In this document: positions 31,528-38,596 of the stretch, piece after piece
How the letters are laid out: each line of letters starts with the position of its first letter
Numbering within the stretch: the first letter of the stretch is position 1
Assembly: GCF_016925495.1 (NCBI RefSeq)
Contig: NZ_CP070491.1
Location: 2,604,001-2,668,000, forward strand
Direction: 5' to 3'
Source: Methylococcus sp. EFPC2
GTDB taxonomy: Bacteria > Pseudomonadota > Gammaproteobacteria > Methylococcales > Methylococcaceae
DNA length: 64,000 nt
Notes under the pieces: model-generated
Told to the model about the DNA's origin: nothing
Seen by the model: the letters and a program-made list of their open reading frames with translations, nothing else
The model's database searches: none
Made by a program: the position numbers and the translations under genes

Positions 31528-31886
31528 GGGGGCGACATGGCTTCGACGTGGATCGCGAAACCCGAGGTGCATGCCGAGGTGCAGAGGACCTCGTAAAACC
31601 ATCTGCAAACAACATAGTTGCCAACGACGACAACTACGCTCTAGCTGCTTAAGTCAGCTAGCCTTCGGCCGGTAGCCCGCTTATAGGCGACCGGTACCGG
31701 GGGTAACCCAATTGTAAGCTCGCGCAGAGGCTCGTCCGGGGCCAAAGCGCTAAACAACACCGGAACCGCCGTATGTCTTCCCTGCCGCTCGGGCAGTGTA
31801 CGGTTAAATCAATAGAGTCGGATACGCATGTAGAGCCAACGGCAGAGGATTTGCGGACGCGGGTTCAATCCCCGCCGCCTCCACCA
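31528..31886 (+). ncRNA. ssrA: Transfer-messenger RNA (tmRNA)
   Basis: A 359-nt one-piece tmRNA that rescues stalled ribosomes with SmpB. The 5' GGGGGCG pairs with CGCCTCC before the encoded ACCA end. The 3' part has the T-arm GCGGGTTCAATCCCCGC, and the 5' part the family signature GACATGGCTTCGACG. The tag frame at 31620-31652, preceded by TAGTT, encodes ANDDNYALAA and a stop, differing from E. coli ANDENYALAA at one residue. Pseudoknot-forming GC segments follow. It is the left border of the accessory island. Confidence 0.97.
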
Positions 31887-34916: not shown

Positions 34917-35147
34917 ATGGCTGCCGCTGTCAGCGAAAAGTTTTCTTTCCAAGCCTCGCCTGAGGTACTTGCTGCACTTAGACGGATTGCCGAGGTGGAG
35001 GGGAGGGAGTTTCAGGCCGTGCTTGATGAAGCCTTGCGGGAGTACATCGAACGCAAGGAAAACGGCCGGCCTCGTCGCCAGGTCGTGGACGCCTTCGCGC
35101 AAAGCTTGGAGGAGTTCGATAGCCTGTACCGGGAACTCGCGAAGTGA
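34917..35147 (+). CDS. Antitoxin of a Doc-type module (RHH/CopG-like)
   Basis: A 76-residue protein with a short N-terminal beta strand (EKFSFQASPEVLAALRRIAEVEG) and helices typical of ribbon-helix-helix antitoxins, then a charged C-terminal tail (RQVVDAFAQSLEEFDSLYRELAK) likely to cap the toxin. GGAG lies upstream of the ATG. Its stop overlaps the doc start (GTGA), so the two are translationally coupled. The antitoxin is intact, unlike its toxin. Confidence 0.8.
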   Translation: MAAAVSEKFSFQASPEVLAALRRIAEVEGREFQAVLDEALREYIERKENGRPRRQVVDAFAQSLEEFDSLYRELAK

Positions 35148-35825
35148 CGGAGCGGGATTATTTGACCGTCGCTGATGTGCTGGCGATGCATTCCCACCTG
35201 GTGCAGCGATACGGTGGAGCATCAGGCATCCGTGACCCCGGCACACTTGAGGCCGCATTGTTTCGCCCACAAACGGGTTACTACGACGATATTGTCGCCG
35301 AGGCGGCCACACTGCTGGAAAGCCTGGCCATCAATCATCCCTTCGTCGACGGCAACAAGCGGATAGCCTTCGCCGCTACCGATATATTCCTACGCATCAA
35401 CGGTTATCGCATTAACCACGCACCGATGGCTATTTACGCCGATATGATGAGGATGTTTGAAACCGGGACTTTCGATGCAGCGTGTCCCACGACGTGCTGT
35501 GCCTAACGGCGTTCCCTACGCCGCACGGCCGCACTTGCGGGACGGTTATTGCCTTCGGCGCCCCAGCCGTCCCCCGTCGACTCGCTCCAGCGACCTTAGA
35601 GCCGTCGCCTCCGCATCGCTCCGAGATGACTCTACGGCCTGTTCGGGATGCCTTGCAGGTCACCTACGGACGCAATAAAGCCTGCGCCCTGCGGTGCCCC
35701 GCCCGGCCCTGGGCCTTCTGGGGGGCATGGAAAACATCCCGGTCTACCCGCTGCGCGGCTGACCTTTGTTTTCCAGCATTGCCCACCTGGAGCCGTGGCT
35801 TCGAGAGAGGGTGGTCGAAAAATAA
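35144..35825 (+). pseudogene. doc: Doc/Fic-type toxin split by a 301-bp insertion
   Basis: Doc phosphorylates EF-Tu and stops translation. Codons 1-111 (35144-35476) read LTVADVLAMHSHLVQRYGG, IRDPGTLEAALFRPQ and the Fic motif HPFVDGNKR, ending with MRMFETGTFD. The frame then enters foreign sequence and stops after nine codons at 35506. At 35778 the missing end appears: IAHLEPWLRERVVEK and TAA (35823-35825). Joining 35476 to 35778 is exactly in frame and gives 126 residues, the length of phage P1 Doc. The shortened 120-residue product keeps the catalytic motif but loses the last helix. Start is GTG overlapping the antitoxin stop. Confidence 0.85.
35477..35777 (+). mobile_element. R2 element: 301-bp non-coding insertion in doc
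   Basis: Bounds are set by the in-frame rejoining of doc. It carries no sensible reading frame but several inverted repeats: CAGC...GCTG close to the left end, GGCG-TTCCCTA-CGCC at about 35508, GGGACGG...CCGTCCC at about 35536, and GGAAAAC...GTTTTCC (about 35728 to 35774) at the right end. No target duplication is evident under the in-frame model. Its right 128 bp recur at 38469-38596 with about eight differences. Terminal structure without target duplication resembles IS200/IS605-derived non-autonomous elements; this is inference. Confidence 0.75.
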
Positions 35826-36009: not shown

Positions 36010-37428
36010 TCACCCACCTAAGCTTTCAGTACTTCCTTCTTGCCTAGTCCCTTCCTGCCACTGCGCATATTCCAGAGGCCGCAAACCGAAACGAATAGCG
36101 TTGCCCGCGTGCAGACCTTTGAACTCCGTCAAGACCAGTTCGACGAAACGCTCTCGGTCGTTCTCCGCAACAGTGGCGGGAATAGTGGTCCGGATCGACC
36201 CTTCGCTGACCGGCATTCCCCCGCGCACAACGGCAACGACGGCCTCCGTCAATGAATTGCGATAACGCAAACGGAAGGTGTCCGGCGGCACCAGATGCTG
36301 TTGCACGGCAACGTACTGCTGGCAAGACCGTTCATAAGCCCACACGAACACATCGCGCAGCAACTCGATGCGAGTAAGTTCATACACGCCCAGAACGCCA
36401 TCGACGTAGGCTTGCTGCGGCACATCAATGAAGGAAAGCGGACAGAGATTGTGGCGAATGAAAGGAATATTGGCGGCCAGGCGCGAGACTCGTTTGTTCA
36501 CATCCTCGAACGGTTGCAGGTAAGGGAGATGCACCATCAGGAAAAAAGCCTGTTCGAAGGGATCGCGAATTTCCGACGCCATAATGACCACGATGCCAAA
36601 TAACTCTTCCAGCCGCTGCGGCATAGCGATCGGCAGATAGACGCTGCCGCCGATATCCACCGGATGGTTGCGAATGCGGCCACAAGCCAGCGGGTCAGGC
36701 AGCAAGCCATCGGAAAGGAATGCGTGCAGCGCGACGATGGTTTCCGCATTGACTCCGGCATGTTCGGTATCACGGACCAAATATTCGATCGCGGCTTTGT
36801 GGTTGAGGATCATCTGGGTTTCGAGCGCATCCTTGCCTTCTGCGGCCTGGCCGAATTCGATCAGTCGCTCGGTATCGAGCCGACTGTAGGTGTTGCCTTC
36901 CAGACGCGAGGACGCCCATGAAAGATCAATCATCAGGCGGTTCAAAATGTCACGTGCGAAGGTTCCGGCACGCTGTTGGCTTGCCGAGGAACGCCCCAGC
37001 AGGTGCAGTTGGGCGCGCAACGATTCCGGGAGATAGTAGGTCAGGTTGGGGTGATACCGCTCCAGAAACTCGACTTTGTAACTGACGGGCTGTCTTTGCT
37101 GGCGTGGCTGGCGGATGTACGCCCTGATCTCTGCGCCTTCTGGTGAGGTGGGAACATACACCTCGCTGTTGGCCTGGACTATATCGGCTGCCTCGGCAAT
37201 CACCGAGACGCCATTGACTGGCGAAATCCGATACTTTATCGCGCGTCCCTCGCCTTCTAGCTTGACCCGCATCTGCTCAACCAGTGTGGCCAGGCGGCGC
37301 TGCAGAGTGCGGCGGGACATGACCATAGCCATTGCCTGTGAAAGCCTGTCGATGCCAATGCCATCCGGGTACTGGCCGATCAGTTCGACGAGTCGATCCA
37401 AATCCTGTGCTGAAACGAGCTTGGGCAT
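36010..37428 (-). CDS. Fic family protein with winged helix and self-inhibitory motif
   Basis: A 472-residue intact Fic protein, probably an AMP-transferase for an unknown target. The N-terminal 100 residues look like a winged helix (GIDRLSQAMAMVMSRRTLQRRLATL). At about 175-182 the inhibitory-helix motif SSRLEGN appears, which in class II Fic proteins blocks ATP binding. The catalytic segment at about 298-318 is HLPYLQPFEDVNKRVSRLAAN, where HxxYL-PFEDxNKR replaces the usual HPFxxGNGR. This DUF4172-free subgroup is known in bacteria, but the target is not. An inverted-repeat operator directly upstream suggests autoregulation by its own DNA-binding domain. Confidence 0.88.
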   Translation of the reverse strand: MPKLVSAQDLDRLVELIGQYPDGIGIDRLSQAMAMVMSRRTLQRRLATLVEQMRVKLEGEGRAIKYRISPVNGVSVIAEAADIVQANSEVYVPTSPEGAEIRAYIRQPRQQRQPVSYKVEFLERYHPNLTYYLPESLRAQLHLLGRSSASQQRAGTFARDILNRLMIDLSWASSRLEGNTYSRLDTERLIEFGQAAEGKDALETQMILNHKAAIEYLVRDTEHAGVNAETIVALHAFLSDGLLPDPLACGRIRNHPVDIGGSVYLPIAMPQRLEELFGIVVIMASEIRDPFEQAFFLMVHLPYLQPFEDVNKRVSRLAANIPFIRHNLCPLSFIDVPQQAYVDGVLGVYELTRIELLRDVFVWAYERSCQQYVAVQQHLVPPDTFRLRYRNSLTEAVVAVVRGGMPVSEGSIRTTIPATVAENDRERFVELVLTEFKGLHAGNAIRFGLRPLEYAQWQEGTRQEGSTESLGG

Positions 37429-38452: not shown

Positions 38453-38468
38453 TATTCGGTTGTCAGAG

Positions 38469-38596
38469 GCCTTGCAGGTCACCTGCGGACGCAATAAAGC
38501 CTGCACCCTTCGGTGCCCCACCCGGCCCTGCGCCTTCTGGGGGGTATGGAAAGTATCCCGGTCTACCCGCTGCGCGGCTGACCTTTGTTTTCCAGC
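38469..38596 (+). repeat. Repeat R2, partial copy (right 128 bp)
   Basis: Same orientation and nearly the same sequence as 35650-35777 (about eight differences in 128 by eye), ending at the identical TTTTCCAGC. The left 173 bp of the full element are absent. It abuts the first codons of the converging hypothetical gene. The two direct copies bracket the fic region and could support its loss by recombination. Confidence 0.85.

Follow-up and report, generated by a model that had tools for sequence, protein, structure and literature searches.

The genome of Methylococcus sp. EFPC2 carries, within a stretch of 64,000 nucleotides analyzed here (contig NZ_CP070491.1, positions 2,604,001 to 2,668,000; hereafter the window, whose numbering is used throughout), an antitoxin-toxin gene pair in which the doc toxin gene is interrupted by a 301-bp insert. 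All features of the locus lie on the + strand. The antitoxin gene (34917-35147, 76 aa) is an intact frame in the list of open reading frames, as an earlier note made from the sequence of this window had stated, and overlaps the start of doc; its product matches the Pfam family PSK_trans_fac weakly, below the family cut-off. Doc codons 1-111 occupy 35144-35476 and encode a Fic/DOC domain (Pfam match 8.7e-16) with its catalytic motif kept, their translation ending in GTFD. The insert follows at 35477-35777, and codons 112-126 with the stop codon resume at 35778-35825, which translates to IAHLEPWLRERVVEK-stop and lies beyond the reach of the upstream frame. The translations thus bear out the precise split described in the earlier note, with one refinement: rather than closing at 35476, the frame continues through nine element-derived codons and a stop (35477-35506), producing an open reading frame of 120 aa at 35144-35506. 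The Fic motif HPFVDGNKR is intact in the interrupted gene, and nine residues take the place of the C-terminal 15. The interrupted gene therefore retains its Fic core, with only the last 15 residues exchanged. The inactivation of the toxin proposed earlier is plausible.

An uninterrupted site, which the earlier note had suggested looking for, was found at the protein level. Each doc piece was translated and searched on its own, not as a joined sequence, and the closest Doc relative, encoded on plasmid pBB1 of Cupriavidus necator (73% identical), is unbroken across the junction at GTFD-IAHLEPWLR and reads ...SGTFDIAHLEPWLRAFARPTA. Because this homolog runs straight through the junction, no codon was gained or lost on insertion. 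The same antitoxin-then-toxin gene order is also present on Methylocella and Acetobacter plasmids, where the Doc homologs are uninterrupted. The doc insertion represents one route by which toxin-antitoxin genes get interrupted.

The insert is present in eight copies in the 4.56-Mb genome, all at 100% identity over exactly positions 1-301, along with three degenerate copies. The eight occupy unrelated sites, some in one orientation and some in the other. In every one of them identity stops at the same base at each end, so the element boundaries are real. Further copies with the same ends are expected of a mobile element, and their presence agrees with the mobility that the earlier note had proposed; the 301-bp insert is mobile and multiplies, and doc would have been hit by chance. 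Also in keeping with that note, the 301 bp hold no convincing gene and none was found inside any full-length match, as befits a non-autonomous element.

Palindromes, including some near both ends, had been noticed in the insert, and these proved to be real and part of a conserved fold. Two independent alignments yielded one architecture, made up of a 5' hairpin, a long-range stem with two more helices inside it, and a terminal hairpin at the 3' end. The 5' hairpin (P1, 35484-35544) appears in the consensus fold of the two alignments and in single-sequence folds. The long-range stem closes the center of the element (35558-35726, with arms at 35558-35573 and 35711-35726); it corresponds to inverted repeat I2 and to helices 5 and 6, in which double changes occur, and the second alignment agrees with it. 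The 3' terminal hairpin, TGGAAAACA...TGTTTTCCA (35728-35775), corresponds to inverted repeat I4 and was likewise recovered in the second alignment. In the first alignment, 92.8% of cells can pair as compared to 78.1% in shuffles, and 33 of the 60 pairs contain double changes. The covariation score was 0.403 against 0.149 in shuffled alignments, none of 500 shuffles being as good, and it dropped to 0.05-0.10 when the pairing partners were slid by one column. Column-shuffled controls gave z values between -15 and -23 for both strands. The long-range stem has other helices within it, and folding must therefore involve one strand of the element over its full length. For pairs common to both strands there were 18 G-T and 19 A-C cells, and energies and shuffles likewise favor neither strand, so the folded form could be either strand, as RNA or as DNA.

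The flanks were compared at 97 distinct sites with intact ends, drawn from 19 genome/subfamily sets and chosen by the element ends, not by the flank. The fourth base of the right flank (+4) is a G at all 97, and the fifth is a G at only one. At a G frequency of 0.29, the probability of the +4 rule is near 5e-53, or 4e-51 after correction for the positions examined. Two distant gammaproteobacterial genomes, with aligned ends inspected, follow the rule at nine of nine and five of five sites, and a Methylobacter plasmid adds one more, for a total of 112 of 112 intact-ended sites. In doc, the right flank reads ATTGC (35778-35782) with the G at 35781. The left flank is unconstrained across the 97 sites, with every base seen at every position. 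The point of entry thus lies three bases 5' of a G whose next base is not G (NNNGH). Identity between left and right flanks was at chance in 360 tests, which upholds the earlier observation that no target duplication is evident, and complementarity between the flanks was also at chance over the 97 sites. Palindromic target sites were considered and rejected; two of eight sites in the source genome were hairpin-like, but 34 sites were no better than random positions. Together with the covarying fold, the strict right-flank rule provides a testable handle on the transposition machinery; should that machinery be guided by RNA or by the DNA fold, it would join the few programmable insertion systems. 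Degenerate copies may break the rule, as seen for L009 in the source genome (tttA) and for one site in G034/G036 (AACC). Two degenerate copies in two genomes (L305 and L313) have a common insertion context and depart from the G rule (AACC); they possibly reflect one ancient insertion, passed on by descent, within a conserved repeat. One of the three degenerate copies in the source genome lies within the window, 2.7 kb downstream of the doc insert (38466-38596); it is 5'-truncated, covers positions 171-301 at 93% identity, and has a right flank, catG, that fits NNNG.

A DNA search of 38 genomes of the bacterial family of the host, a methanotroph, revealed relatives of the element in 18, with a maximum of 17 matches in one genome; one of the genomes (G004) holds 14 full copies of 289 bp, almost all identical. 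There are several subfamilies that differ at their ends and have a common core. A covariance model of this 102-position core (R1), which contains four base pairs and is nearly a pure sequence profile, matched 146 of 301 Methylococcales genomes, covering 36 of 50 genera, and 21 of 369 genomes sampled from Gammaproteobacteria, several with ten or more copies. Among 299 genomes drawn at the phylum level, whose listed members were all Gammaproteobacteria, there were no matches beyond the source genome. Copies reside on named plasmids of Methylobacter, Methylomonas and Methyloprofundus; a search of a plasmid collection returned four Methylococcales plasmids with one query and one more with another. 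No element was found in a phage collection, and a viral collection gave three weak matches near E 0.007. Full-length matches measure 250-320 bp throughout, and none among them is a longer, gene-bearing version. Partial left-end matches were considered as a possible autonomous version and proved to be other gene-less subfamilies of equal length. No Rfam family matches the element, the weak matches at one locus (L272) sitting on a flanking terminator-like hairpin, and no description of the family was found in the literature covered, which consisted mostly of open-access papers and did not extend to ISfinder. The insert therefore belongs to a family, not listed before, of small, intricately folded mobile elements that lack genes; the family is common in methane-eating bacteria and sporadic in other Gammaproteobacteria. 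Present in roughly half of the Methylococcales genomes sampled and in several other gammaproteobacterial families, and missing from Rfam, the element marks a sizeable blind spot.

Because no examined copy carries a gene, movement is taken to occur in trans, and it is nearly certain that this is a structured element moved in trans and bound to a target motif. The best overall explanation, which includes a Y1/RAYT-type mobilizer acting in trans, is given a probability of about 0.42; the Y1 step on its own is tentative, a Y1 enzyme being the leading candidate. Under this explanation, a chromosomal enzyme would recognize the folded single strand and cut beside a motif of very few bases (5'-DCNNN, as read on the opposite strand), the enzyme being a Y1 transposase of the HUH class and of the domesticated type, namely RAYT (the transposase associated with repetitive extragenic palindromes, REPs) or TnpA-REP. 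Five protein families were tested as mobilizer candidates, and Y1/RAYT-type genes, found in all 17 element-rich genomes, were the only ones present in every genome. IS91-type Y2 genes and TnpB genes each occur in six of the 17, the source genome having neither, and a full-length RRXRR (IscB/IsrB) gene is carried by 13 of 301 genomes of the order and is missing from the source genome and from most element-rich genomes. A minimal motif is conceivable for a Y1 enzyme, since TnpA-REP enzymes cut at a dinucleotide, either CT or CA (PMC8266576).

Several observations weigh against a Y1 mobilizer. Y1 genes are near universal, occurring in 35 of the 38 family genomes, so their presence in element-rich genomes is weak support. 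When 14 RAYT loci from four genomes were compared with the elements of those same genomes, no element-like sequence was found. The strand bias that IS200-type single-strand transposition would predict was not seen either, the mean oriented local GC skew, a weak proxy, being -0.001 (standard error 0.007) over 71 sites. A target whose fixed base is separated from the cut by three unconstrained positions resembles no Y1 target known to us, and three genomes with few element copies (G008, G018 and G036) show no Y1 gene. Y1 genes adjoin elements in three cases, with no ends in common: an IS200 jumped into an element and truncated it (L109, in G010), an element sits inside an IS200 and splits its Y1 gene (L281/L064, around 1945058-1945701 in G013), and a RAYT-like gene is found at a distance of 40 bp from an element (L057). 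IS200-type elements and the element family have, in G013 and G010, jumped into each other.

The comparison with known Y1 systems bears on the classification offered in the earlier note, that of an IS200/IS605-like element. IS200/IS605 elements are defined by a left-end flanking tetranucleotide, by subterminal hairpins read by the cognate Y1 TnpA, and by a lagging-strand bias (PMC6006769). Their non-autonomous (PATE-like) derivatives resemble the present element in being gene-less, in having hairpins at both ends, in lacking a target duplication, and in being moved in trans. Unlike them, the element has no conserved left tetranucleotide, no strand preference and no matching transposase; the other strand has just one fixed base, four positions out, and a single fold spans the whole length in place of two subterminal hairpins. 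The Y1 transposase with matching end hairpins that had been proposed as a check was not found, the Y1 loci being free of element sequence apart from two chance mutual insertions. Thus, the precise, non-autonomous insertion, the end palindromes and the absent target duplication all stand, but membership in IS200/IS605 is not supported, and filing the element there is not justified.

REPs and REPINs with their RAYTs are likewise palindromic repeats of Gammaproteobacteria that carry no gene and are moved in trans, and a RAYT-like Y1 gene is present in each element-rich genome tested. REPs measure 20-65 nt and carry GT[AG]G at the foot of the stem, while the element measures ~290 bp (range 250-320) and also enters genes. 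No GT[AG]G was present among the element starts listed, and no element copy flanks a RAYT gene at the 14 RAYT loci. Rolling-circle elements of the IS91/Y2 type resemble the element in that their target motif is short and confined to the right end and no target duplication arises, but their known motif is a full tetranucleotide, and Y2 genes are missing from 11 of the 17 element-rich genomes, including the source genome.

If the element were instead a new type of HEARO-like (IscB/IsrB) omega-RNA, its plus strand would be the guide RNA, the left flank the guide, and NNNGH the target-adjacent motif, with the copies representing RNA-only derivatives. There is a likeness in anatomy, as HEARO (RF02033) and the element are both ~300 nt, strongly structured, free in the left flank, provided with a short right-flank motif and lacking a target duplication; the element is in addition gene-less, its fold contains long-range stems, and its motif starts with free bases. 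IsrB uses an RNA of roughly 300 nt and a right-side NTG, NTGA or NTGG motif (PMC9581776). Even so, we consider this explanation rather unlikely. Eight sampled element loci gave no RF02033 match at E values up to 5, whereas 65% of HEARO loci match the HEARO model (PMC9755519). The fixed G lies at +4 instead of +3, the wobble counts given above show no strand preference, and a full-length RRXRR/IscB gene is missing from the source genome and from most element-rich genomes, with no IscB/IsrB gene nearby. In the reverse comparison, the element model found nothing convincing beside iscB/isrB genes at 20 iscB-type loci (best E 0.3). Short frames encoding only RRXRR (64-118 aa) occur in nine of the 38 family genomes. 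A frame of this kind (L093 at ~1411-1665; G000:C1:1035196-1035327, minus strand) encodes a protein of 84 aa that corresponds to the N-terminal PLMP/RRXRR piece of IscB and nothing more, and it adjoins a gene for a small, apparently conjugation-related membrane protein.

Two further possibilities are each doubtful. The insert may be a reduced relative moved by another enzyme, such as a serine or tyrosine recombinase, an IS110-type enzyme or a reverse transcriptase, with the three-base offset set by cut geometry. The constant offset does look as though the cut were made a defined number of bases from a recognized one, and the mobilizer search covered only some enzyme families. Bridge-RNA targeting of the IS110 type, however, fixes a longer target than that of the element, classical DDE transposases leave target duplications where the element leaves none, and the Rfam models for group I and group II introns do not match. 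Alternatively, the element could belong to a new class consisting of folded nucleic acid only, inserted by chromosomal, possibly RNA-guided machinery that reads the minimal NNNGH and is unrelated to the known IscB, TnpB, IS110 and HUH families.

Were the insert self-splicing or intron-like, with the host gene still functional, the precise entry into coding frames and the conserved fold would be accounted for, but this reading is very improbable, as no Rfam intron family matches, no sense bias is seen (14 copies in the same and 10 in the opposite orientation relative to the long frame entered), and the base at the left flank is free, unlike that of group I introns. That the insert is an error of assembly, or belongs to doc as a conserved segment, can practically be dismissed given the eight identical copies at unrelated sites, the uninterrupted Doc relatives, and the relatives of the element that follow the same target rule in many genomes.

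Two other features lie near the interrupted gene pair. Just downstream of doc, on the opposite strand (36010-37428, minus), is a gene encoding a 472-aa Fic-domain protein (Fic/DOC match 2.8e-8). A transfer-messenger RNA gene with the tag ANDDNYALAA lies at 31528-31886, 3 kb upstream of the antitoxin-doc pair.
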